Part shown: positions 367-13,062 of the stretch, piece by piece
Numbering within the stretch: the stretch's first letter is position 1
How the letters are laid out: each line of letters opens with the position of its first letter
Origin: Candidatus Cloacimonadota bacterium
Lineage (GTDB): Bacteria; Cloacimonadota; Cloacimonadia; JGIOTU-2
Length of the DNA: 58,250 nt
Assembly: GCA_016932035.1 (NCBI GenBank)
Contig: JAFGDR010000057.1
Coordinates: 1-58,250 of the forward strand
Direction of reading: 5' to 3'
Translations under genes and position numbers: made by a program
The notes under the pieces: generated by a model
What the model saw: the letters and a program-made list of their open reading frames with translations, nothing else
The model's database searches: none
Told to the model about the DNA's origin: nothing

Positions 367-397
367 AAAAAAAGAGCAGGACGATGTTTCCTGCTCT
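367..397 (-). terminator. Rho-independent terminator of the redox operon
   Basis: On the minus strand AGAGCAGGA pairs perfectly with TCCTGCTCT (9 bp) around a 7-base loop, and a T-run follows. It sits 27 bases past the stop codon of the selenoprotein gene and is the only strong terminator after dsbD, so it marks the end of the eight-gene operon. Confidence 0.88.
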
Positions 398-423: not shown

Positions 424-2601
424 TTATCTCATCAGAATAAGTTTTTGTGTTGTTTCTATATTATCCGTTTTGATTGTATAGAAATAGATGCCATTTGAAA
501 CGCTCTTTCCTGAATTATCTTTTCCATCCCAGATTGTATTATAACCGGTTACAGATGGTTCCAATTCAAGTGTTTTTACAACCTCGCCTTTAATATTATA
601 AATCGTTACATCTTCCAATTCTTGAATATGCGATTTTGAGGAAAATGATATGGTTGTTTCATCAGTAAAAGGATTCGGATAACTTCGCATCGTCATTTCA
701 GGTAGTTCAGGATCGTCGATTGAAATATTCTGGTGATAATATAGTGCCCCCATATCAGCTCGTGTTCCATCAGGATCAAGCGGTGATGTAGGATCTCCAG
801 CGTCTATGCATGGTGAGGTTTCCTGCAGACTCCAATCTGCTTCAAGACCATTAAAGCTCGGTCCATCTCCAGTAGTAGGATCAACAAACAAAGGATCATC
901 ACTGATATTACCGGTTCCAGCATAACCGCCAGACAGGTCGGAATAAGTAACAACTGGATTACTTGAGAAATTAATAAAGACATCTCCAGTTTGCCTGAAA
1001 ATAGAATTGTCAATAATTGGATTGGATGATGAGAATAGATAAAATGTATAGTTGGAAAGATTATTAGCAACAGTGTTATGGGTGATTTCAGGACAGGATT
1101 CATTCTTCATACTAAAAGCACCTGCAAACATAGCTTCATTATTCACAATGATGTTCCTTGCAATCACCGGGGACGAATCATCCAAACTTATTGCCCCACA
1201 CAAACTTGAGCTTGTATTATTTGAGATCAGATTCCATTCAATGAGAACATCATCAGAATTACGAACGTTGATCGCCGGACCTTTTTGTGAAGTAGTCGAG
1301 TTTTCATAGATCGTATTGTGCCCAACAACAACACGAGCATTGTAGATATCTACTGCACAATCCACTGAGCCGGTTATCTGAGAATACCCAAGAGCATTCT
1401 CGTAATCATTATTGAAGAAATACAGCCCACTCCATGTATTGTCAGTAGTGAAGATAATATTTCCTCTGTCATTACCAATTGCAGAAAAGTATCCTTCGAT
1501 TGTTATCTTACTTCCGTTATTCGTGTGAACCTCAACATTCGGTTCTATCTCAAGCATGTTTTCATCTGCAAGATGTGCGTCATCCGTTATTATATAAGGA
1601 CTATATGCCGAAGTCCAAATACCTGAAAGTTCTCCGCTTATGTCGGCTGTGCTTGTTACAGTAATGTAATCTTCGGCAGTAGCGGTTGCGGTTTCCACAC
1701 CATCAGAAATACGAAGGGATACATCATAGGTTCCAATCGTATCATATAAATGATAGGGATTCTCTTCTGTACTGTCCCATGTTCCATCTCCGTCAAAATC
1801 CCATTCATATGATACAATTCCAGTATCAGGATAGGATTCGTTGTAGAATTGCACACCCAATTGCGGCGGTCCGGATTGAATATTGCTGCTGAAAATTGAG
1901 AAAATACCGCTCACCCCACAGGTGGCTGCCTGATGTATTTTGTAATTGCTTGAAAAAGTCTGAACAATCGCCACTGCTTTCAAATCCGGTAATACCCAAT
2001 CCGGATCATAGGTAAATGAATAGGAAAAACTTCCGGTCTGACCTACTGTGGTAAGATTAAAATTCTCATCGTGATATGCAACGACCGCACAAGTATAATC
2101 ATCAGTGTATTTATAGGTGAGTAGAAGAATGATCTTGTTGTTAGTAGTAGTGATATTTCCAGTCAGTTCAACATCAGCCTGAACATCAATGGTCGATTTT
2201 GAGGTAACATCCATCGTAATGTCAATTGCACATGGACTATCCAGGGCATTAAGTGTATTGTAATGAGGAAGGTAATAATTATACATACTACCACCAGAAA
2301 TCCCACCAACTTCTGAAATATATCCTCCAAACCGAGCATGAGGAATACCGCCGACACCGTACATACCTCCACGAGTGCTGTAATTGGGACTTGGCATCCC
2401 CACGTAGCCGCTTGTGCTTTGCCAGAAAATCGGAATAAAGTTATCGAAATTAGCTTGAAGATCTCTCAACCCGGCCCGGGCTGATGGACAGTATCCTCAA
2501 GACGTGGATGTAAATACTTCCCCGACCACGTTCATTTGTGTTGCAGAAAGTATCATAGGAAGAAGTATGATACCAGCAAGTAGTATAAGTAATTTTTTCA
2601 T
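424..2601 (-). CDS. Secreted selenoprotein: thioredoxin-like (UxxC), PKD, beta-helix, sorting domain
   Basis: Read from ATG 2601 (GGAG 8 bases upstream), the frame is open to 424 except for one TGA at codon 35. If that codon is selenocysteine the product is 725 residues. In order it shows: a signal peptide (1-20); an Omp28/thioredoxin-like part with redox motif TSTSUGYCPSARAGL (U35, C38) and a GIP cis-proline-like loop near 85; a beta-sandwich; a PKD domain around 243-316 (YEWDFDGDG); a right-handed beta-helix-like region of about 325-605; and a C-terminal sorting domain (SYPNPF, TIYNIKG, GIYFY). The upstream paralogue in the same operon has TGTWCPNC, so U35 aligns with a catalytic Cys. A bacterial SECIS hairpin follows the TGA. 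A conventional reading would start at TTG 2469 and lose the signal peptide and redox motif. The alternative is a nonsense mutation. The seleno reading is an inference, but a strong one. The substrate is unknown. Confidence 0.82.
2466..2484 (-). promoter_or_regulatory. Bacterial SECIS element
   Basis: Minus-strand RNA UCAGCCCG (2484-2477), loop GGC (2476-2474), CGGGUUGA (2473-2466) forms eight consecutive pairs including one G-U. The apical loop starts with GG, and 20 bases separate the UGA from the loop. This fits the known bacterial SECIS rules: a stem-loop just 3' of UGA, a small loop with G at its start, and about 16-37 bases of distance. The GC-rich patch is out of character for this AT-rich gene, which suggests selection on RNA structure. 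Confidence 0.78.
2497..2499 (-). other. In-frame UGA, predicted selenocysteine codon
   Basis: The minus-strand codon TGA is preceded in frame by ACA TCC ACG TCT and followed by GGA TAC TGT, giving a U-x-x-C redox motif. Upstream in the same frame are a good ribosome site, an ATG and a signal peptide; downstream the frame stays open for 690 codons. The codon takes the place of the first Cys of the CxxC motif seen in the paralogue at 10308-11387. Confidence 0.8.
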
Positions 2602-2623: not shown

Positions 2624-5227
2624 TTATTGTATTATTGTGCATTGTTTTACTTGTTTGACTTGATTATTAACTGATAATTTATAAAGATAAGTTCCAGTTG
2701 AAACCGGAACGCCATTAACATCTTTTCCGTTCCATTGAATGAAATGATCCCCGGTAGTCATATCCCGGTCGATCAGTTTCTTAACCAGCTGCCCTTTGAT
2801 ATTATAGATAGCAATTTCTACTTGCGCTTGTTTCTCAAGAGTAAAAGATATTTGCATTTCTGTATGGTGTGTTAAACTGAAAGGATTAGGATAATTCTGA
2901 TAGAGTTGTGAAAGTACCTGCTGCTGTGGTTCAGGATCAGTACTAACAATGATCTCATCCAGGTCGATCTTGTATGCAGAACAGCCATAGGTGCCGATCA
3001 CCATAAATCTGTCTGGATTATAAATTTTAATATCAACAACTGGAACATTTGGCAAACCTTCAGAAAGACTGTGCCACTCAAAACCACCATTGTCAGTAAA
3101 AAATACCCCTGAATCAGTGCCGACAAAAAGCTTATTAGGAATGTCAGGATCTATAGCAATGACGTTAACTGGTATCTGTGGTAAATTCCCGCTAATATTG
3201 TACCAGTCCTGACCTAAATTTGGTGATTTAAAGACATGCGGAGCTTCTTCATCCCAGCGGAAACCGGATACTGTTGCATAAATCGTATTAACATCATGAG
3301 GATCACATGCAACACGGGTGAACCAACGGTCAGGTAATCCGGCAGAAATATCATTCCATGATGAACAGTTATCTGTTGAAATATGCACTCTTCCATCATC
3401 AGATCCGGCAACGATAATGCTTGGATCGAGCTCAGATATTGCAATTGTCGTGATCGTATGGTAGCTGCTGCCGTCATCACCCTGTGTCAGGTCTCCACTT
3501 ACCGAAGTCCAGCCTGATCCACCATTCGTGGTTTTCCAGATTCTGTATGTTCCAAAATAAAGGATATCAGGATTGGTTGGGTGTATAACATATGGTGAGG
3601 ACCAGTTCGTCCTATCACCGGACATTGGACCAGCAATATAGCTCATATATGAGCCACCGTTTGTTGATCTATAGAGATTTCCCCATTGATATTCCGCAAA
3701 GATAGTGTTGGGATTCGTGTAGTCTACAAGACAATAAAAACCATCTCCACCAAGGATTGCTTCCCAGTCGTTCAACGCACCGGTCATCGTACGTATGGTG
3801 TTGTTATCCTGTGTTCCGCCATAAATTCGATAGGGATATGTCTGATCAATCTCAATAGCATAGAACTGTGTCATGGGCAGATTGTTGATTTTCGTCCATG
3901 AGCTTCCGTTTGTCGTGCTCTTGTATAATCCCCCATCATTTCCTTCCAGAATGAATAAAACATCATCATCGATATACATTGCATGATGATCGACATGCAT
4001 ACTTGAACCAACTTGACTCCAGTTATTTCCACCGTTCGTAGTTCGATAAAGATACACACCCATAACATATACCATATCTGGATTATTCGGATCAACTCGT
4101 ATCTGACCAAAGTACCATCCAAAGGTGCTGTTGATACCCTGAAGCGACCCATCGTTTGTTGGAATCCAAGTATTTCCCCCATTATCGGTTTTAAAAACAT
4201 CAACCTGGTTCGTTCTATCATAAAATGCATAGAGTCTATCTGGGTTGGATTTTGAGATTGCCAAACCGATTCTACCGACATCGCTGCCGGTGGGAAGTCC
4301 TGAAGTTAACTCGACCCAGGTATCTCCACCATCTGTGGTTTTCCAAATCCCTGAACTTGGTCCAAAAGATCGTCTGTAGGTCAAACCTCTCATGCGCTCC
4401 CACATCGCTGCATAAAGAATATCAGGGTTTGTAGTATGCTGCACCAGATCGACTGCCGCTGTGGAGTCAGTAATGAAGAGCTTTCTCTCCCAGGTCTGTC
4501 CACCATTCTCGCTTCGGAATACACCGCGCTGTTCGTTTGCCGAAAAAAGGTTTCCGCAAGCAGCAACATAGACTCTCTGGGAATTGTTATAATCTACAAT
4601 GATCCTACCGACGTATCCTGACTCTTCCAATCCGATATGATCCCAGGAAAGACCACCATTAGTGGATTTATACATTCCATTACCCAGGAAGCTGTAACTG
4701 GAAGCATTTGCTTCACCAGTTCCAACATACAGTGTATTTTCATCATTAGGATCAAGAGCAAGAGCTCCAATTGATATGACTGGTGCTTGTGTAAAGACAT
4801 TCTCCCATGTGTTTCCAGCATCGATTGTTTTAAAGACACCACCCGATGCAGCTCCAACATAGAATTTATCAAGGTCGCTCGGGCAAACAGCAAGGTCGGT
4901 AATTCGACCACCAATATTGGTTGGACCCACAAGCTCCCAGGAATATTTATAAGCTGAAGCTGATTCATGCATTTTCTGCGCTTCATCCATACTCTGGAGA
5001 TAGTTGTCGATTTTGATCTTATTATGGGGATACACCCGTTGATATGCCATCCATTCATTAGGAAGCACATCAGGTTCTTTTAGAACTGCTTCACCATGAG
5101 GTCGTTCGACCCATCGATCTGCCGGTTTTCCCTTTTTGTGAGTTGTAGGTACTGTTACGAGAATGACAACTACTGCAATGACAAGAAGAAAAATGATCAA
5201 ATATGTTTTATGCTTAAAAATGTTCAT
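2624..5227 (-). CDS. Secreted Asp-box (BNR/sortilin-like) propeller protein with sorting domain
   Basis: The product is 867 residues. An N-terminal hydrophobic segment (about 9-27) acts as signal or anchor. From about residue 95 to 760 there are roughly ten Asp-box turns such as YKSTNGGLSW, FRSENGGQTW, WKTTDGGDTW, FKTDNGGNTW and YRTTNGGNNW, the signature of VPS10/sortilin-like or sialidase-fold beta-propellers. The last 90 residues are the sorting-type domain (YQNYPNPF, IYNIKGQLVKKL, GTYLYKL). Such propellers bind proteins or glycans and no catalytic residues are evident, so an adhesive or structural role is more likely than hydrolysis. It ends 22 bases before the selenoprotein ATG and starts 4 bases after the subtilase stop, so it lies inside the operon. 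Confidence 0.85.
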   Translation of the reverse strand: MNIFKHKTYLIIFLLVIAVVVILVTVPTTHKKGKPADRWVERPHGEAVLKEPDVLPNEWMAYQRVYPHNKIKIDNYLQSMDEAQKMHESASAYKYSWELVGPTNIGGRITDLAVCPSDLDKFYVGAASGGVFKTIDAGNTWENVFTQAPVISIGALALDPNDENTLYVGTGEANASSYSFLGNGMYKSTNGGLSWDHIGLEESGYVGRIIVDYNNSQRVYVAACGNLFSANEQRGVFRSENGGQTWERKLFITDSTAAVDLVQHTTNPDILYAAMWERMRGLTYRRSFGPSSGIWKTTDGGDTWVELTSGLPTGSDVGRIGLAISKSNPDRLYAFYDRTNQVDVFKTDNGGNTWIPTNDGSLQGINSTFGWYFGQIRVDPNNPDMVYVMGVYLYRTTNGGNNWSQVGSSMHVDHHAMYIDDDVLFILEGNDGGLYKSTTNGSSWTKINNLPMTQFYAIEIDQTYPYRIYGGTQDNNTIRTMTGALNDWEAILGGDGFYCLVDYTNPNTIFAEYQWGNLYRSTNGGSYMSYIAGPMSGDRTNWSSPYVIHPTNPDILYFGTYRIWKTTNGGSGWTSVSGDLTQGDDGSSYHTITTIAISELDPSIIVAGSDDGRVHISTDNCSSWNDISAGLPDRWFTRVACDPHDVNTIYATVSGFRWDEEAPHVFKSPNLGQDWYNISGNLPQIPVNVIAIDPDIPNKLFVGTDSGVFFTDNGGFEWHSLSEGLPNVPVVDIKIYNPDRFMVIGTYGCSAYKIDLDEIIVSTDPEPQQQVLSQLYQNYPNPFSLTHHTEMQISFTLEKQAQVEIAIYNIKGQLVKKLIDRDMTTGDHFIQWNGKDVNGVPVSTGTYLYKLSVNNQVKQVKQCTIIQ

Positions 5228-5231
5228 GTTA

Positions 5232-7310
5232 TCATCTCAAAATAATGAATTTATTCAAGTAATTTGTGTTTTGTATCTGATAAAAATAAACACCTGTGTT
5301 GAGAGATTGCACATCGAGCTGCGCAGTTCCATTGTTGCCACGGACTTGTGTAACAAATTCACCTTTTACATTATAAATCGAAATGGCAGGATCAATGTGC
5401 TGAACATGTTGTGCATAGTGTATGGTCAATGTAGTTGCAACAGGATCTGGATAATGAGAAACGATCATGTTTGTTTGAGGATTTTCATCAATTCCGACAT
5501 TTGTACAACCTTCTGCAAAAACATCTAAGAAAAACATATAGAATGGTTGCTGATTTATCGCAATTTCACCATCATAACACTGTGCACAGGAAGGACAGAA
5601 TGTAAGATCGAATGCCTGGCATGAACCGCTTGCAACAGCATAATTAAGAGCATTTCTTGCAGGATCGTCGGAATCCCTGAGAGTTACAGTAAATCCGTCC
5701 GGGGTTGAGATCGTACCGCGAAGAGTATCACCGCCAACATTTTCGATATAGAACTGCAATGTCGAATCGGTTCCAACAAAAACATTCCCAAAATCAAGAG
5801 TTGTAGGAAAGAAATTCATTATAGGACTTGGAGCTGGAACCTGATTGATTGCTTCCAATGCATCGATTCTTCCTGATCCAAATGTATTGCTTTTATTGGT
5901 AGAAAGTTGATAAGCAGTTTCTTCAAGAATTTGATCGATATCAGCAGGAGTTAGGTTATTGTTTTTTGAGAGCATAAGTGCCATGACGCCAGCAGCACAG
6001 GGTGTTGCCATCGATGTACCGCTCCACCCGCTTTCATACCCGTAATTGCTGTAATGTGCAAGAGATTTGATATTTTGTCCAGGGGCAACAACATCAGGAC
6101 GGATCAAACCCATTTCCGGAGAATAGGGATAATCATTAAATCCAGAAATGTATTCCCATGTAACAGGTCCTCGTGCTGAGAAGGATGCAATTCCATCACC
6201 GGAATTCGTTGCACCAATACAAATAACTGAACTAATGCCGCCTGTGAGTGTCTGATCCGGATGAAGCCAGGGAGGAGGGCAGTCTCCAGGAGTCCTGATA
6301 TTGTCCGGAATGGGATACATATATTGCTGATCACCCTCATTACCCGCTGCAACAGAAGCTGGTATGCCAGCAGCAAGCAGTGTATTCATCGTATTTCGCC
6401 AGGTTATCCTATTTGGACTCCATGCATGAAGCCATCCGAGTGACATACTGATAACATCAGCACCATTATCAATTGCAAATTGAATGGCATTCCATACACC
6501 GGATTCGGAACCCCCACCACCGTTATCGAGCACCTTAAGGCACATAATTTGAGCATCAGGTGCCATACCGGTCTGTGACCCAGCAGTTCCATCTCCAGCA
6601 ACCGTACCTGCACAATGTGTTCCATGTCCATGATCATCCATAGGATTGTTATCATTATATCTGAAATCCCAACCGTGGTAGGGATAGCTGGGATCAGTCC
6701 AGAGGTGGTCTGCAAGGTCGACATGATTATAGTTCACACCGGTATCGATAACTGCAACTGTCACACCGCTTCCTGTATAACCAAGATCCCACACATCATC
6801 AGCTTTGACTTTGGTAACATTCCACGTGATCTCACGGGTCGTAGGGAAAGCTGGCTCACCTTTTTCAAACATAAGCATGTTACGAATCTCGTCATGATCG
6901 ATCAGATCTATATCATCTCGATTAATAAGGGTATAAATAACTTCGGCAGTTGCCTTACAAGAAATGACATTTGATACCCACAGAGGAGTAATATCTTTCA
7001 CAATACTATTGAAAGAGAAGTTCTCCAGATCATAGAGTAAATCTTGCTGATGGTATTCGCTAAAGGATTTCAGTTCCTGAATAACAAAATCTCTTCTTTC
7101 AGATTCTGGTAAATATGCACTTTGCTGCAACAAATCCTGATGATCATATTGTTGTTTCATTATTATGTTGACGGGTATGAGTTCTGTTGTTTCACTCTGC
7201 TGCAATTTTTGTTCAAGCTGCGGAGTAAGTATATCTTGGTTTCCATACAATGCTGAGAAGCCGCTCGTGACCAACAACACTGCAATGAAGAGGGAAAGTT
7301 TAAAACGCAT
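5232..7310 (-). CDS. Secreted subtilisin-like serine protease (S8) with sorting domain
   Basis: The product is 692 residues with a signal peptide (1-22). A propeptide-like region runs to about 150. The catalytic triad is visible as D189 (AVIDTGVNYNHVD), H229 (DDHGHGTHCAG) and S433 (GWSGTSMATP), with the oxyanion Asn in AAGNEG. A choice-of-anchor-D/HYDIN-like sandwich follows (TTLDFGNVFVGTDSTLQF). There is an unusual cysteine cluster (FCPSCAQC), and then a somewhat diverged sorting domain (HYPDPVATTLTI, IYNVKGEF, GVYFYQI). A strong AAGGAG precedes the start. The cysteine-rich segment in a DsbD operon suggests that its disulfides may be managed by the neighbouring redox proteins; this is inference. 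The protease family call is secure and the substrate unknown. Confidence 0.93.
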   Translation of the reverse strand: MRFKLSLFIAVLLVTSGFSALYGNQDILTPQLEQKLQQSETTELIPVNIIMKQQYDHQDLLQQSAYLPESERRDFVIQELKSFSEYHQQDLLYDLENFSFNSIVKDITPLWVSNVISCKATAEVIYTLINRDDIDLIDHDEIRNMLMFEKGEPAFPTTREITWNVTKVKADDVWDLGYTGSGVTVAVIDTGVNYNHVDLADHLWTDPSYPYHGWDFRYNDNNPMDDHGHGTHCAGTVAGDGTAGSQTGMAPDAQIMCLKVLDNGGGGSESGVWNAIQFAIDNGADVISMSLGWLHAWSPNRITWRNTMNTLLAAGIPASVAAGNEGDQQYMYPIPDNIRTPGDCPPPWLHPDQTLTGGISSVICIGATNSGDGIASFSARGPVTWEYISGFNDYPYSPEMGLIRPDVVAPGQNIKSLAHYSNYGYESGWSGTSMATPCAAGVMALMLSKNNNLTPADIDQILEETAYQLSTNKSNTFGSGRIDALEAINQVPAPSPIMNFFPTTLDFGNVFVGTDSTLQFYIENVGGDTLRGTISTPDGFTVTLRDSDDPARNALNYAVASGSCQAFDLTFCPSCAQCYDGEIAINQQPFYMFFLDVFAEGCTNVGIDENPQTNMIVSHYPDPVATTLTIHYAQHVQHIDPAISIYNVKGEFVTQVRGNNGTAQLDVQSLNTGVYFYQIQNTNYLNKFIILR

Positions 7311-7319
7311 TACATCTCC

Positions 7320-8048
7320 TTATTTAAGTAATAGTAATTTATCTGTAATTATAGTTTCATCTTCAAAAGATGTTGAGTAAAAATATACCCCATTTGGAAC
7401 AGATTCTCCATTTTGATCTGTTCCGTCCCAGGTGACTGAGTTCATATCTGGGGTAATGTCGAGGATTTTTATCGTTTCACCTTTGATATTATAAATCGTA
7501 ATATCTGCAATTTTGTTGAAGTTATTCTGCGAGGTAAATGAAATCGTTGTTGAGCCACTGAAGGGATTGGGTGAATTTTTAACAGAGATCTGGTTCTGGA
7601 TTTGAGGATCATCAACCGATACACCTGTTGTGTATTCAAAATTTACATTAACCGGAACGGGAAGACTTGCCGCAGTAAACTTATAGGAAAAACTCATTGA
7701 TCCTGCTGAGGACACTGTTATAGTGAAATCAAGTTTGAGTGTGTCACCGGCACCAAGAGTAATATGCCATGGAAAACCCGGTAAATGGCATGCGCCAGCA
7801 CCTTGATACAAATGGCACCAAATCATCGACCAACCGGTTGGAATATCGACATAATCAACCATCACAGTGAAATCATCCTCTGCACCAGTATTGACCACAT
7901 CGAAATATTCTGATTCATAATTATACGTTGAATCATTGTATGCAGGTCCGATAACTTGAGGATCAAAGGGAATATGAATACTCAGATCTGCATGTAGACT
8001 TATGGCAGTAAAGATCAGTGCGCTTATTAGTATTATTATTTTTTTCAT
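7320..8048 (-). CDS. Small secreted protein with beta-sandwich and sorting domain
   Basis: The start is the ATG at 8048, seven codons of signal after AAGGAG; an upstream in-frame ATG at 8063 lies inside the previous gene's stop region and is less likely. The product is 242 residues: a signal peptide (MKKIIILISALIFTAIS), about 120 residues of beta-rich sequence that looks Ig- or PapD-like, with two cysteines (IWCHLYQGAGAC), then the sorting-type domain (NSPNPFSGSTTISF, TIYNIKGETIKIL, GVYFYST). No enzyme motif is visible. Its position between the DUF6029 barrel and the subtilase suggests an accessory exported partner. Confidence 0.8.
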   Translation of the reverse strand: MKKIIILISALIFTAISLHADLSIHIPFDPQVIGPAYNDSTYNYESEYFDVVNTGAEDDFTVMVDYVDIPTGWSMIWCHLYQGAGACHLPGFPWHITLGAGDTLKLDFTITVSSAGSMSFSYKFTAASLPVPVNVNFEYTTGVSVDDPQIQNQISVKNSPNPFSGSTTISFTSQNNFNKIADITIYNIKGETIKILDITPDMNSVTWDGTDQNGESVPNGVYFYSTSFEDETIITDKLLLLK

Positions 8049-8062
8049 ATATGCTCCTTCCA

Positions 8063-9493
8063 CTAAAATGTGGTAATTAATTCAGCTCGTAAACCCTCAA
8101 ACTGTTTGCGATATTTGCAAATACCATTTCGGCAAACTTTTCCGCCCTTCTCTTTTCCAACAAACAACCGAAGCGTGGTATTCTTGAGAACTATCTTACT
8201 GATCTCTGCACCAAGCCATGGTGTTTTTTTACCGATCTCTTTTAAATTTTCGCAGGAAGATTCTGCGATCACAGAGACATCGAAATCAAAGATGTTTGTA
8301 TCGATCTGAACAAGAGGTTCCCAGTGATGTGATTTTTCCTGCTGGTAGTGTTTATCAAAATATTGAAGTTCAGTTTTGATAGAGATTGGCATTTCACCGA
8401 TCATGAAATCGTACATGACAGTTGGTGTTACTTCTTTTTCCCAGTGCTGAACATTATTATCCTTTCTTTCAAGGTGTGAAAAACTGGCAGTCAGTGTCGA
8501 CATATCAAAATAATGAATGCCTTCAATCCATAGGTCAGTCTGCCGTATCGACCAGTCATCATTCCATTCTTCTGAATAATTCAATATGAGTTCATTGAAG
8601 TCGTTTGGCAGGAATGAGATCTCTCCCATTGCACCCTGTTGATCTTTTCCAATCGGAGAATCATACATGGGTTCATTGCTGTGATTAATGATAGGTAAAT
8701 CGTTAAGCCGGGAAACAAAATTTAAATAATTGTTGTATGCAACTGTAAAAGAGAAAATATTGAAGTACGTGTTCAGATTTGCGTAAAGTGCATGACCGAT
8801 CTTTGAGATACCCTCCGATTGATCCAGGTAGCCATATTCAGCGTTGAGGTCAAACCAGCTTGCATTGAGATTTGTTCGTGCTGCAAAGATCTTTCTGTCG
8901 AGATAATTATCTCCTGCCTGCCATTCACGGACATTCACAAATGAAGCGCCAAGTTTTACTGCTTCAAAGATATCTTTCTGAAAATCAAGACCAGCTACAA
9001 CATCATTCTTTGTAACATTATCTTCGTTTGGAAGCGCTGCATATAATGCTTTTGCCTGGAAAGATCTAGGGAATATTTCAGCAGAGAATCCATTAAGACG
9101 TGTATCGATATTAAAATCTCTGTCTCTGTATGCTCGCAATGCAATACCGGATCCGAATACCTGTTCAAAATTTCCTGCACGAGCAGAGAAATTATCGATC
9201 TTATATTCGAGGAATCTTTCATCCCACCTATAGGAAATCGACTGAGAGGTGAGTTCTTCCATTGCCGCATAATCATCATACTTTGGAAGTTCAGCAATAA
9301 ACTTCATCCCAAAGGTAAAATTCTTATATGTAAAACGAAAACTGAACTCATCAGAGAAGTAATTTTTTAAAGAGTCTTCTGCATTCTTGTACACATAGAT
9401 CGCTTCGTTCAGTCCACTGATACGTAGATCCTGTACGGCAAATAAAGCTGATGTTATTGAAATGATAAAAAGTATGAGTATTATTCTTTTCAT
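8063..9493 (-). CDS. DUF6029-like outer-membrane beta-barrel protein
   Basis: The product is 476 residues with a signal peptide (MKRIILILFIISITSALFA). The rest is alternating polar/aromatic strands typical of an outer-membrane barrel (FSFRFTYKNFTFGMKF, FSARAGNFEQVFGSGIALRAY) and a C-terminal block with a Cys pair (VCRNGICKYRKQFEG), ending in Phe. This resembles the DUF6029 family, which I recall near thioredoxin-family genes in FCB bacteria; that recollection needs a search. It lies 2 bases after the TlpA-TonB gene stop region and 14 bases before the next start, so it is co-transcribed. It may form a channel or an outer-membrane anchor for the redox proteins, which is inference. Confidence 0.72.
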   Translation of the reverse strand: MKRIILILFIISITSALFAVQDLRISGLNEAIYVYKNAEDSLKNYFSDEFSFRFTYKNFTFGMKFIAELPKYDDYAAMEELTSQSISYRWDERFLEYKIDNFSARAGNFEQVFGSGIALRAYRDRDFNIDTRLNGFSAEIFPRSFQAKALYAALPNEDNVTKNDVVAGLDFQKDIFEAVKLGASFVNVREWQAGDNYLDRKIFAARTNLNASWFDLNAEYGYLDQSEGISKIGHALYANLNTYFNIFSFTVAYNNYLNFVSRLNDLPIINHSNEPMYDSPIGKDQQGAMGEISFLPNDFNELILNYSEEWNDDWSIRQTDLWIEGIHYFDMSTLTASFSHLERKDNNVQHWEKEVTPTVMYDFMIGEMPISIKTELQYFDKHYQQEKSHHWEPLVQIDTNIFDFDVSVIAESSCENLKEIGKKTPWLGAEISKIVLKNTTLRLFVGKEKGGKVCRNGICKYRKQFEGLRAELITTF

Positions 9494-9495
9494 GA

Positions 9496-10308
9496 TTACC
9501 TCTCGTATTTTTCAATTCTGAATCGTATGGGATAAAGAAGTCTTGTTTTCATCGGCTCTTCCCCGATAAGGACGGGTTCAAATACCCATTGCTGAACAGC
9601 ATTCATCGCTGCATCCTCAAAGCCATAAGATGCATCTTCGTTAATACTTACAACACAAAGTTCACCAACTGCGCCGTCTTCGAGTATTTCCAGATCGAGA
9701 ATCACATCTGCGATTATGTTAGCTTCATGTGCTTCAGCCGGATAATCCGGTCCGACCCATGTTGTTGGCTCCATACGTTCCTCAGAAGGGTACATCTCTT
9801 CCAACTGTGCAATCGTGATATCTTTGAACATGATCTTTCTTAGTTCTGTTTCAAGTTCGTACTCATCACCCTGCGTATAACCTTCGTGGGTATAGACAAA
9901 CTCACCATCGTTGTTTATGATATATGTTCTGGGAATTGTATTCACGTTTAGAAGTTGTGATACGCTTTTTTTGGCATCGAACAAGGTTATAAATTCATAT
10001 CCTTTCGATTTAACAAAGGATTTTGCCTTGTCTTTATCACGAGGTTTATCGATCGTAATACACACGACATTGAGAAGATCATCATATTTTTTCTGCAGGT
10101 CATTAAGATGAGGAAGCGCTTTCTTACAAGGATTACACCATTTTGCCCAGAAATCTATGATAACAGCTTTTTTAGTAAGTAATTCCTCTGAACTGACCAG
10201 ATCTCCATTGATATCTTCGAGTGTAAATTCTGGTAATATATCTGCAGCACTCACTTGAGATAAGATTAAAAATATTCCAATAATTATGATTACAAGCGTC
10301 TTTTTCAT
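9496..10308 (-). CDS. TlpA-like thioredoxin fused to a TonB C-terminal domain
   Basis: The product is 270 residues with a signal peptide (1-21). Residues 24-165 are a TlpA/ResA-type thioredoxin fold with active site WAKWCNPCKK (C58, C61) and the cis-Pro loop NTIPRTYI. Residues about 185-268 match a TonB C-terminal domain (YPAEAHEANI, AAMNAVQQWVFEP, PIRFRIE). The family role is periplasmic disulfide reduction with electrons from DsbD/CcdA. The TonB-like domain would bind a periplasmic partner or an outer-membrane protein. Its ATG overlaps the preceding gene's stop as TAATG, so the two are translationally coupled. The fusion is unusual, because there is no transmembrane TonB anchor and so energy transduction is unlikely. 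Confidence 0.85.
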   Translation of the reverse strand: MKKTLVIIIIGIFLILSQVSAADILPEFTLEDINGDLVSSEELLTKKAVIIDFWAKWCNPCKKALPHLNDLQKKYDDLLNVVCITIDKPRDKDKAKSFVKSKGYEFITLFDAKKSVSQLLNVNTIPRTYIINNDGEFVYTHEGYTQGDEYELETELRKIMFKDITIAQLEEMYPSEERMEPTTWVGPDYPAEAHEANIIADVILDLEILEDGAVGELCVVSINEDASYGFEDAAMNAVQQWVFEPVLIGEEPMKTRLLYPIRFRIEKYER

Positions 10309-11387
10309 TATTCACTCCCCTTTCCTGCTGACATATCCTCTTCAATCACATTATATATTTTGCATGTATCAGCATTATATGGATCGGCAACAGTTTGAAG
10401 CCAGACGTACAGGACAATATCATCGGGAACAGTTGACGGCATTTCCAGTTCGAATGAAACAGGTGAATCAAGGTTTTCTGCACTGATATTCTTCATTCCC
10501 TTGGTAATGACCACTTGCTCGCATGGTCTGCCATTATATCCATTAACTGATGATACTTTTTCAACAAGTGTAAATTTTAGATAAAGATCATCTGATGAGA
10601 GAGCATCTGTTTTATCAACAGTTATTTCGCCGAATAATGTATCTGATATGGTATAGGAAAGATCTTTTAATTCTGCCAGAGCGTCAACATCAATGAATGT
10701 AATAAGCGTATTTTGATATTGAGCGTATGTATCTGCACCACCGCCGGTTACACGAACCTGACCCTGAAACATCGATTGCGGAGCAGAATAATCCATACCG
10801 TAGTATTGGATCACTTCGATGGCTCCTATATCGAGTACATCATTCCAGTGATACTCCATATAATATAGTTTATCTCCATATTCATCTTTCAACTGCTTGA
10901 GAGCATCTTCTGCATAATGACAATTCGGACACCATGTTCCGGTAATCATTTCAACAACTACCTTTTGGGGAACGGGTGGTGAAATTTGGTTGCCGATAAA
11001 AAGGAAGCTATCTCGTAGAGCTTGAGCATAGTCTATAAAGGTTGTATCAACACCTGCAGCTACTATTTGATATGACACCTTTAATTCTGCTTCAGATAAT
11101 ATCTCGATCTCCATCGCAATGCTGTCCGGTGAAGCATCTGCAAGCGAAGAATAGAAATTCTCCATATCTGCTTTTTCCATTCCGTTGTTCAGATATGTAT
11201 CCGAATAGTAAGTCATGATCGATGCAACATCATCATAGAGAACACCTTCCTCTACATGGTCTGTGAAGCGCATCAGGAAGTGTTCAAATTCGGTTAGCAC
11301 AGGATCAAAATGATGGGAGAACCTATCGCAGGAAAACATGGATACTATCAATACAGTCACGAGAATGAGGAGTGTAATTTTTTTCAT
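10308..11387 (-). CDS. Omp28-like thioredoxin-fold lipoprotein (CPNC)
   Basis: The product is 359 residues with a lipoprotein signal ending VSMFSC (lipidated C20). An N-terminal helical region (about 25-130) is followed by a thioredoxin-like domain with VVVEMITGTWCPNCHYAEDA (C153, C156) and a beta-sandwich C-terminus resembling Omp28-related outer-membrane proteins. The redox segment aligns without gaps to the selenoprotein at 424-2601, where the first Cys is replaced by UGA. It is therefore the cysteine paralogue that supports the selenocysteine call. It lies 19 bases after dsbD and overlaps the TlpA-TonB start. The likely role is a membrane-tethered periplasmic thiol oxidoreductase fed by DsbD. 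Confidence 0.8.
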   Translation of the reverse strand: MKKITLLILVTVLIVSMFSCDRFSHHFDPVLTEFEHFLMRFTDHVEEGVLYDDVASIMTYYSDTYLNNGMEKADMENFYSSLADASPDSIAMEIEILSEAELKVSYQIVAAGVDTTFIDYAQALRDSFLFIGNQISPPVPQKVVVEMITGTWCPNCHYAEDALKQLKDEYGDKLYYMEYHWNDVLDIGAIEVIQYYGMDYSAPQSMFQGQVRVTGGGADTYAQYQNTLITFIDVDALAELKDLSYTISDTLFGEITVDKTDALSSDDLYLKFTLVEKVSSVNGYNGRPCEQVVITKGMKNISAENLDSPVSFELEMPSTVPDDIVLYVWLQTVADPYNADTCKIYNVIEEDMSAGKGSE

Positions 11388-11406: not shown

Positions 11407-13062
11407 TTATTTAGGTACAAGAACGACATAAGAGGGTAGCCCGAGAACACCAAAATAATCGAGCAATTCTTTTGTTGGTGATTTTTTTAAATCCTCTGCT
11501 TGATAACGTACAAGAACAAAATCTTTCAATACTTCCTCGACACGATCATCTTTGAATGTTGTTGCTTCCATTGCAAGACAGTTTTTACACCAAGTTGCCC
11601 AAAAATCAATGAGAATTGGTTTATCTTCCTCCAAGGCATTTTGCATTCCTTGTGTTAATGATGGCGTCCAGTATAGATCAGAACTTTCTTCGGTTGCATG
11701 ATGCTCTTCAATATATTCTTTTTCTCTAGATTGTGAAGAGAAAATATGAATTGCTGTATAGCCATAATACAGAGCAATCACCATAATAATTATACCAAAA
11801 ATATATTTAATCCACTGCATCCATTTTCCAGGTTTAGGAAGAATCGAAAGCCCAGCACCCACAAAAGGCCAAGGTAAAGCCATACCTGCTCCCAGAAGGA
11901 ATGGGAGTAGCAATCCTGCAGGATTACCAGAACTATATAATGTAACTGAGTAAAGGATCACAGATATTAGTACAGGAGCAACGCATGCTCCAGCAAGAAC
12001 TGCAGCTATTACTCCTAGAATAAATACAGTAATATATTTACCTTTTCCAGTTTTCTTATTAGCTACTTTGCCTGATTGAAATCTTGTAAAATCTATAGGA
12101 AAAACATCAAACATTGCCAGAGCAAGAAGGATAAATATAATTGCTATTACTATATTGAACCAGGGAGAGGAATTGATACCGCCAAAGCGAGAGCCGGTTA
12201 GTACAACGATCAAACCAAGCCCACCATATGCGAGCATCATACCTATTCCGTATAATCCTCCGATCAAAAATCCCTTTCCCTTTGATTCCGCCTGAGTACC
12301 TGCTCCAAGCACCGCAATAGTTATTGGCATCATCGGAAGCACACAAGGAGTGAGATTAAGAGCAACGCCGCCAATAATTATCAGGAGTAATACAAGCCAG
12401 ATATTCATTCCAGCAAATCTATTTGCAGATGAACCATCCGAAGTGGTTGCTTTTTCTGCGAATGCTATAAAGTCACTACTTTTTAAGTACCCGGCAGCAA
12501 TATCCTTCATAACAAATTTGTCGAGATCAATTTTTAATTCGGAGAATTTTGATTCAGTTGATTGGTCTTTAGGATCCTCTTGCTTTGTCGTAAGCTCTTC
12601 TTGTGTGGGATGAATAGCTTCTTCACCAGTCACGATTAGTTCCATTACAAGTTCTTCTTCTTCAGGAAAGTGACACATTCCTGCATCATCACAGAACTGA
12701 TAACCGGCATATATTGTTAATGACTTCTCCCCGATCACAGTATCTTCGGATACGATAAATTCCATGGTTAGTGTTACTGAGTCATAATAATCAGTACTAC
12801 CTTCATGTACAATACCGTCCGGATATTGAACTGGCAAGAATTCAATCCCATCAACTTCTTCTGGTTCGATATAGAAGTAATCTTCCTGCAAACTTTGATG
12901 CATACCTTCAGGGATTGTGAACGTGACGGAGATGACTCCTTTGTCTCCCGGGGAAATTTCTGATTGTTGAACTGAAATTGTGGCTACATTTCCTTGTGCA
13001 TACAATATCTGCATTGAGATCATGAGCAGTACAAGTGCAGCAATAACTTTCATATATTTCAT
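11407..13062 (-). CDS. dsbD: DsbD, transmembrane thiol:disulfide interchange protein
   Basis: The product is 551 residues in the classic three-part layout: an N-terminal periplasmic alpha domain with FCDDAGMC (C124, C130); a transmembrane core of about eight helices (about 220-440) with the paired cysteines LTPCVLP (C240) and GACVAPV (C360); and a C-terminal thioredoxin domain with ATWCKNC (C492, C495). It moves electrons from cytosolic thioredoxin across the inner membrane to periplasmic thiol proteins. It is the first gene of the operon, with GGGAG 6 bases before ATG. All six conserved cysteines are present and the length fits the family. Its downstream neighbours are plausible clients. Confidence 0.95.
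   Translation of the reverse strand: MKYMKVIAALVLLMISMQILYAQGNVATISVQQSEISPGDKGVISVTFTIPEGMHQSLQEDYFYIEPEEVDGIEFLPVQYPDGIVHEGSTDYYDSVTLTMEFIVSEDTVIGEKSLTIYAGYQFCDDAGMCHFPEEEELVMELIVTGEEAIHPTQEELTTKQEDPKDQSTESKFSELKIDLDKFVMKDIAAGYLKSSDFIAFAEKATTSDGSSANRFAGMNIWLVLLLIIIGGVALNLTPCVLPMMPITIAVLGAGTQAESKGKGFLIGGLYGIGMMLAYGGLGLIVVLTGSRFGGINSSPWFNIVIAIIFILLALAMFDVFPIDFTRFQSGKVANKKTGKGKYITVFILGVIAAVLAGACVAPVLISVILYSVTLYSSGNPAGLLLPFLLGAGMALPWPFVGAGLSILPKPGKWMQWIKYIFGIIIMVIALYYGYTAIHIFSSQSREKEYIEEHHATEESSDLYWTPSLTQGMQNALEEDKPILIDFWATWCKNCLAMEATTFKDDRVEEVLKDFVLVRYQAEDLKKSPTKELLDYFGVLGLPSYVVLVPK

Follow-up and report, generated by a model that had tools for sequence, protein, structure and literature searches.

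The gene on the minus strand at positions 2601..424 of the window (the whole stretch of 58,250 nucleotides of Cloacimonadota DNA analyzed here) very probably encodes a genuine selenoprotein, namely a UxxC oxidoreductase of the HBP35/Omp28 type that is predicted to be exported to the cell surface by the type IX secretion system. The components of this explanation differ in strength: (i) insertion of selenocysteine (Sec) at codon 35 is almost certain, being well supported by comparison of homologs, (ii) export to the cell surface is likely, as suggested by the C-terminal tail and one translocon component (SprA), and (iii) the function of a disulfide reductase or isomerase is an assignment that we regard as evenly balanced.

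The gene comprises 726 codons (725 residues) and ends with TAA. Its ATG at 2601 is preceded by GGAG, which resembles a ribosome-binding site, and its sole internal stop is the TGA at 2499-2497 (codon 35), found in the context VVGEVFTSTS-U-GYC (…CPSARAGL). The signal-peptide-like MKKLLILLAGIILLPMILSA lies upstream of the TGA, and 690 codons are open 3' of it. Translation thus confirms the claim of the first-pass annotation that a single in-frame TGA separates a signal peptide from a 690-codon frame. The same annotation expected conventional gene calling to begin at a downstream TTG; indeed, unrecoded ORF calling opens the gene at TTG 2469 and yields a 681-aa ORF that has lost both the signal peptide and the active site. 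Since standard annotation drops these two elements, selenoproteins of this class are easily missed in databases. The features of the gene are as follows.

424..2601, minus strand: selenoprotein gene with Sec35, combining an Omp28/HBP35-type thioredoxin domain, PKD, beta-helix and a predicted type IX sorting tail (frame, homologs, domains, model)
2542..2601, minus strand: signal peptide, residues 1-20 (sequence; modeled helix 2-18; hydrophobic leader in aligned homologs)
2497..2499, minus strand: Sec codon TGA (Sec35) of the UxxC motif U35-G-Y-C38 (frame and homolog alignment)
2466..2484, minus strand: core bacterial SECIS hairpin, UCAGCCCG-GGC-CGGGUUGA, 8 bp, apical loop 20 nt past the UGA (folding, synonymous null, covariation)
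1897..2541, minus strand: thioredoxin-fold and beta-sandwich (Omp28/HBP35-like) domain with invariant U/C35 and C38 and conserved Pro87 (alignment, model)
1657..1872, minus strand: PKD domain, residues 244-315 (Pfam)
1000..1440, minus strand: right-handed beta-helix region, residues 388-534 (Pfam)
436..681, minus strand: type IX C-terminal sorting domain (Por_Secre_tail / FlgD_ig), residues 641-722 (Pfam, NCBIfam)

Comparison of homologs at codon 35 revealed UGA or Cys codons only and no random stops. Among 79 non-redundant homologs with a residue at this position, 61 have UGA, 18 have a Cys codon, and none has any other codon; four of the 18 Cys homologs carry UGA three codons downstream (CxxU). 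The paralog from the same operon (10308-11387) reads ITGTWCPNC, and its Cys aligns with codon 35, as previously noted. Cys38 and Pro87, like the residues around them, vary little or not at all, and conservation at the protein level is observed on both sides of the TGA. The TGA is retained in dozens of species, at 90% and 77% N-terminal identity within the same genus and at less than 50% elsewhere, and it occupies the equivalent site in other species whose genomes were assembled independently (G002, G003, G033 and others).

The TGA form was found in 35 of 125 Cloacimonadota genomes, and selA or selB is present in all 35. SelA is encoded in 31 of these genomes and SelB in the remaining four (G046, G101, G102 and G095, partial in G101); the latter were considered as exceptions having TGA without selA and were dismissed once selB had been found in each of them. 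Family f3, which lacks selA, has no TGA copy and contains distant Cys forms only. In genomes G050 and G029 (L064:3176-8910 and L065:6548-12285), three UGA genes of this family are arranged in tandem, two of them with UxxC and one with CxxU (EICSGUGGDYS).

The covarying hairpin at 2484-2466 falls inside the interval 2440-2500 that had been proposed for a SECIS search. Its loop starts 20 nt after the UGA, within the range of 16-37 nt expected for bacterial SECIS elements, and has a G in the first two loop positions (GGC). Compared with synonymous recodings drawn with the codon usage of the gene itself, the hairpin is substantially more stable (-10.7 vs. a mean of -1.1 kcal/mol, p=0.002). A comparable hairpin was detected in 53 of 59 UGA genes, with a mean of -6.3 vs. 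-0.85 for the synonymous null. For 28 sequences in a common register, pairing reaches 86% of cells, and it does not exceed 46% once the register is slid; the former figure is biased upward because these sequences were picked for that register; the covariation score is 0.385 vs. at most 0.122 when slid. The bSECIS consensus matches 44 of 60 UGA genes but also 11 of 14 Cys genes, so it was dropped as a discriminating test and replaced by the apical-hairpin test against the synonymous null. The folding energy of the whole stretch, evaluated against the same type of null, gives a weak contrast between the U and Cys genes (p=0.06).

All four genes for Sec synthesis and insertion that the first-pass annotation had proposed to look for, selA, selB, selC and selD, are present in the source genome (G000). 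Contig C2 carries tRNASec(UCA) at 4332-4426, selA at 4449-5834 and selB at 5839-7770, in the order selC-selA-selB. Two selD genes were identified: one has an in-frame TGA (L149, C33:3525-4451), and the other is of the Cys type (L148, C2:19251-20177) and lies within a 747-aa open frame that is probably a fusion.

These data allow us to weigh three explanations that do without Sec. A true stop at the TGA would leave a short peptide and a separate protein starting from TTG 2469, so that the gene would be split or a pseudogene; it is in line with the 681-aa ORF obtained by standard ORF calling and with the normal termination of other ORFs by UGA, as seen for 4 of the 29 long ORFs that the window contains. 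It is nevertheless very improbable, as dozens of species retain the TGA at this codon, with an open frame and a conserved protein on either side of it, the only alternative residue is the Cys of CxxC, and the SECIS hairpin and the sel genes are present. Even less credible is a sequencing or assembly error that hides a TGT or TGC: the draft genome consists of 66 contigs, but independent assemblies have TGA at the same site. UGA has been reassigned in some uncultured phyla, and this general precedent is what favors its reading here as Trp, Gly or Cys. However, UGA still terminates genes in the window, tRNASec(UCA), SelA, SelB and SelD are all encoded, the alternative residue is always Cys and never Trp or Gly, and the codon is coupled to a SECIS hairpin; we therefore consider reassignment to be as improbable as an error. 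Sec insertion remains the preferred explanation of the codon.

The domain architecture proposed in the first-pass annotation, a thioredoxin-fold selenoprotein joined to PKD, beta-helix and a C-terminal sorting domain, is upheld. The PKD, beta-helix and FlgD_ig/Por_Secre_tail domains each exceed their Pfam cut-offs; the sorting domain scores 43 bits with TIGR04183 (cut-off 23) and 37.8 with PF18962 (cut-off 27). The signal peptide, judged by sequence, and the N-terminal domain of approximately 210 residues are the parts not assigned by an above-cut-off Pfam match. AlphaFold2 modeled residues 1-235 with a pLDDT of 90.9 and a pTM of 0.87, and the top PDB match of this model is HBP35 of P. gingivalis (5y1a; E=6e-12, prob 1.00, TMq 0.67, 14% identity); a further match is the Omp28 domain 2r2c (TMt 0.67). 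The protein thus possesses both a signal peptide and a C-terminal sorting domain, and both the thioredoxin plus beta-sandwich fold of 5y1a and the sorting tail. As comparison with homologs shows, Sec35 and Cys38 are its UxxC thioredoxin site. The sorting-tail assignment is strengthened by HBP35 as the top structural match and by the type IX translocon component SprA in the source genome (about 570 bits).

The selenoprotein gene is the last one in a tight operon extending from 13062 to 424 with gaps of at most ~22 bp. The other members of the operon, in the order of transcription, and its terminator are listed below; genome G003 has the same operon order.

11407..13062, minus strand: the gene that opens the operon, for a DsbD-like transmembrane electron conductor
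10308..11387, minus strand: Omp28-like CxxC paralog (WCPNC), a probable lipoprotein that aligns with Cys at position 35
9496..10308, minus strand: ResA/TlpA-like thioredoxin (WCNPC) fused to a TonB_C domain
8063..9493, minus strand: DUF6029 protein
7320..8063, minus strand: small protein with a sorting tail and two invariant Cys residues, C78 and C87
5232..7310, minus strand: subtilisin-like S8 protease with sorting tail
2624..5227, minus strand: sortilin/BNR-repeat protein with sorting tail, in the same order in G003
373..397, minus strand: intrinsic terminator (9-bp stem and T run) that closes the operon 3' of the selenoprotein gene

The small Cys-pair protein with a sorting tail is encoded close to the Sec gene in several lineages, at each of the five loci examined (the window, L064:2427-3158, L065:12294-13031, L250:3570-4319 and L252:1619-2362), and is a candidate partner or client of the selenoprotein. 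The subtilase of G003 (L250, around 2891-2922) has an in-frame TGA where its homolog from the window has Gly (PYH-G-WDFR); since this site is not a Cys, the TGA is probably a mutation or an assembly error rather than a Sec codon.

The proposed mechanism starts with SelB, which would bring Sec-tRNASec(UCA) to the UGA under the direction of the hairpin 3' of codon 35. The signal peptide would then take the protein through the inner membrane, and the type IX system, recognizing the C-terminal sorting domain, would move it through the outer membrane and attach it to the surface, with the PKD and beta-helix modules possibly serving as a spacer or binder. The exported protein would act as a thiol/selenol-disulfide oxidoreductase at the surface. 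Its targets would be disulfides of exported proteins or environmental oxidants, on which it would work by disulfide or selenenylsulfide exchange, probably as a reductase or isomerase. It may be recharged by electrons passing through the DsbD-like protein and the periplasmic thioredoxin-like proteins encoded in the operon, the path and substrate being guessed from gene order.

A different placement or function of the same selenoprotein has to be weighed against this mechanism. It could be a DsbD-fed isomerase that stays in the periplasm or on the inner side of the outer membrane, or it could bind heme or metal in the manner of HBP35 rather than reduce disulfides. The periplasmic partners encoded in the operon fit the former variant, and the latter has a parallel in HBP35, which combines thioredoxin and hemin-binding activity (PMC2907840). 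The above-cut-off sorting tail and the presence of SprA argue against these options, which are unlikely, though far less so than any of the explanations without Sec. Thus, selenium chemistry appears to be used at the surface of this bacterium, given that a Sec-containing thioredoxin-like protein is predicted to be exported and attached and that the whole Sec machinery is found in the genome.

A second selenoprotein gene of the source genome is located on contig C2 (L016:2379-4301, UGA at 2559-2561, 640 aa), with its 3' end 30 bp before selC. Its product has a TlpA-like domain, FFWGGTG-U-GGC, whose match to TlpA/AhpC-TSA is weak, followed by PKD, beta-helix and a sorting tail; it matches none of the NCBIfam selenoprotein models at E<1e-4. 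The hairpin is conserved in all eight homologs of this gene. Homologs at the equivalent place were found in G001, G003, G006, G007, G010 and probably G013, where the gene start was not recovered. In G003, a single contig carries DsbD ... window-gene homolog - second selenoprotein - selC - selA - selB, whereas in G000 the window gene (contig C57) and the sel cluster (C2) are on separate contigs. A further sorting-tail protein starts within positions 1-91 of the window, and its reading frame extends into C2 (L016:1-2078); therefore, C57 and C2 probably abut. The two contigs have a 6-nt overlap, and their in-frame join yields a signal-peptide start, MKKIVMFSMMLFVLVG..NNK/VYIPQ. The overlap, the join and the synteny with G003 make it very likely that the window gene adjoins the sel cluster in G000 as well. 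Because of the terminator at 397-373, the window gene need not be co-transcribed with selC.

Several Cys genes behaved unexpectedly in the apical-hairpin test, which led to the identification of tRNASec with the anticodon GCA. The full hairpin is kept in several Cys homologs (G025, G037, G039 and G052), and the sole tRNASec of these genomes has the GCA anticodon. Among 60 genomes with tRNASec, the anticodon is UCA in 51, GCA in eight, and both types are present in one. The GCA tRNAs (L154, L155, L163-L168) exceed the Rfam tRNA-Sec cut-off, end with G73-CCA and resemble the UCA type of the phylum. An assignment to the selC*-type tRNA-Cys, which have U73, was disfavored by this acceptor end and by the closeness in sequence to the tRNASec(UCA) of the phylum. 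TGA copies of the window-gene family were found in none of the eight GCA-only genomes vs. 30 of 52 UCA genomes (Fisher p=0.005). Hairpin-bearing TGC/TGT copies were found in 6/8 and 1/52 genomes, respectively (p=4e-6), a comparison that is approximate because in the UCA genomes just the non-TGA copies read were examined. The homologs relevant to the GCA set are L025, L042, L043, L076, L081, L096, L217, L218 and L220-L223. Most true Cys homologs, from genomes that lack tRNASec or have the UCA type, have no hairpin.

A similar distribution was observed for SelD, which has TGA in UCA genomes. In G025, G045, G052, G089 and G091, the codon is TGC or TGT and a hairpin follows it. The pattern has exceptions: SelD of G037 lacks a hairpin, and the Cys-type SelD of G000 (L148) has a weak one. 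No selA was detected in the incomplete genomes G089 and G091. Two tandem Cys homologs in G005, a UCA genome, have SECIS-like hairpins (L226 on C63), possibly fossil SECIS elements left after a Sec-to-Cys change, and G057 contains one borderline TGT copy. Genome G028 holds both UCA and GCA tRNASec (L153 and L169) and is possibly a dual-code intermediate.

In the GCA-only genomes, several apparent Cys homologs are probably UGC/UGU sense-codon selenoproteins, because the only tRNASec is GCA, the codons are TGC or TGT, and the hairpin is mostly kept. Taking these observations together, we lean toward a broader interpretation that is less secure than export itself. Many Cloacimonadota may keep a surface-exported selenium redox system comprising Omp28-type UxxC/CxxU and TlpA-type UGGC proteins with type IX tails. 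In the eight genomes, which are spread over several families, the same active-site Sec would be written UGC/UGU and read by tRNASec(GCA) in the SECIS context, so that these proteins would be hidden selenoproteins with one residue traceable through a change of the Sec codon.

In the usual view, selenocysteine enzymes reside in the cytoplasm or periplasm. The Cloacimonadota, a phylum of uncultured bacteria, appear to show selenol-disulfide chemistry at their surface, and two such selenoprotein genes are kept beside, or syntenic with, the Sec machinery. The family is also a natural experiment on the genetic code, in which one catalytic Sec is seemingly encoded by UGA or UGC/UGU according to the anticodon of tRNASec; the evolution of Sec recoding thus becomes directly testable.

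Among known selenoproteins, the N-terminal domain is close to NF045500, the 'Omp28-related selenoprotein', which corresponds to GOS_C according to a 2026 review (PMC13188914); GOS_C was described as 74 marine sequences in the 2008 marine survey (PMC2398784). Residues 19-230 match NF045500 with E=1.6e-23 and 83.7 bits, below the curated cut-off of 200, whereas Neomarinimicrobiota proteins retrieved with the domain from the window score 447 and 587 bits. Since the match is significant but below the cut-off, the protein is a divergent branch with a new architecture rather than a member of an unknown family. The thioredoxin-fold domain with UxxC is common to both; however, the two full members that were scored have ~370 aa and lack PKD and beta-helix, whereas the protein described here has both as well as the type IX tail, and there are lineage-specific UxxC and CxxU paralogs. 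The exported tailed architecture is absent from the selenoprotein catalogs PMC9312934 and PMC13188914, and a literature search on Omp28, type IX or Cloacimonadota selenoproteins found nothing relevant.

The closest fold is that of HBP35, a Por/type IX-secreted surface protein of P. gingivalis with thioredoxin activity (PMC2907840, PMC3120885). It likewise joins a thioredoxin domain to a type IX C-terminal domain, but has Cys in place of Sec and shares 14% identity over the match. We know of no PKD or beta-helix in HBP35. The Omp28 lipoprotein family (PF11551, NF033782; 2r2c) is related by a weak sequence match (E=0.008, below the cut-offs of the family) and by fold, but its members are Cys-containing lipoproteins without a sorting tail. 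Among the Prx/TlpA-like UxxC selenoproteins (PF00578 redoxins), the counterpart is the second selenoprotein, with its weakly matching TlpA/AhpC-TSA-like UGGC domain, which differs in carrying the PKD/beta-helix/sorting tail.

Variants of tRNASec are known to recode Cys codons (Mukai et al. 2016, as cited in PMC8124441, PMC10778597 and PMC5330540), and PMC5330540 credits the same work with a 'Cloacimonetes type' tRNASec structure. As far as those citing papers describe it, the common features are a tRNASec anticodon other than UCA and Sec at the matching codon with a SECIS element, whereas here the codon swap is followed within one protein family and SelD in eight Cloacimonadota genomes. The first-pass annotation knew of no described selenoprotein of this architecture. 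Because the N-terminal domain adjoins the known GOS_C/NF045500 family, this claim holds for the architecture, context and lineage only: what looks new is the tail of PKD, beta-helix and sorting domain, the operon headed by DsbD, the expansion across the phylum, and the second tailed selenoprotein (TlpA-like, UGGC) by selC.
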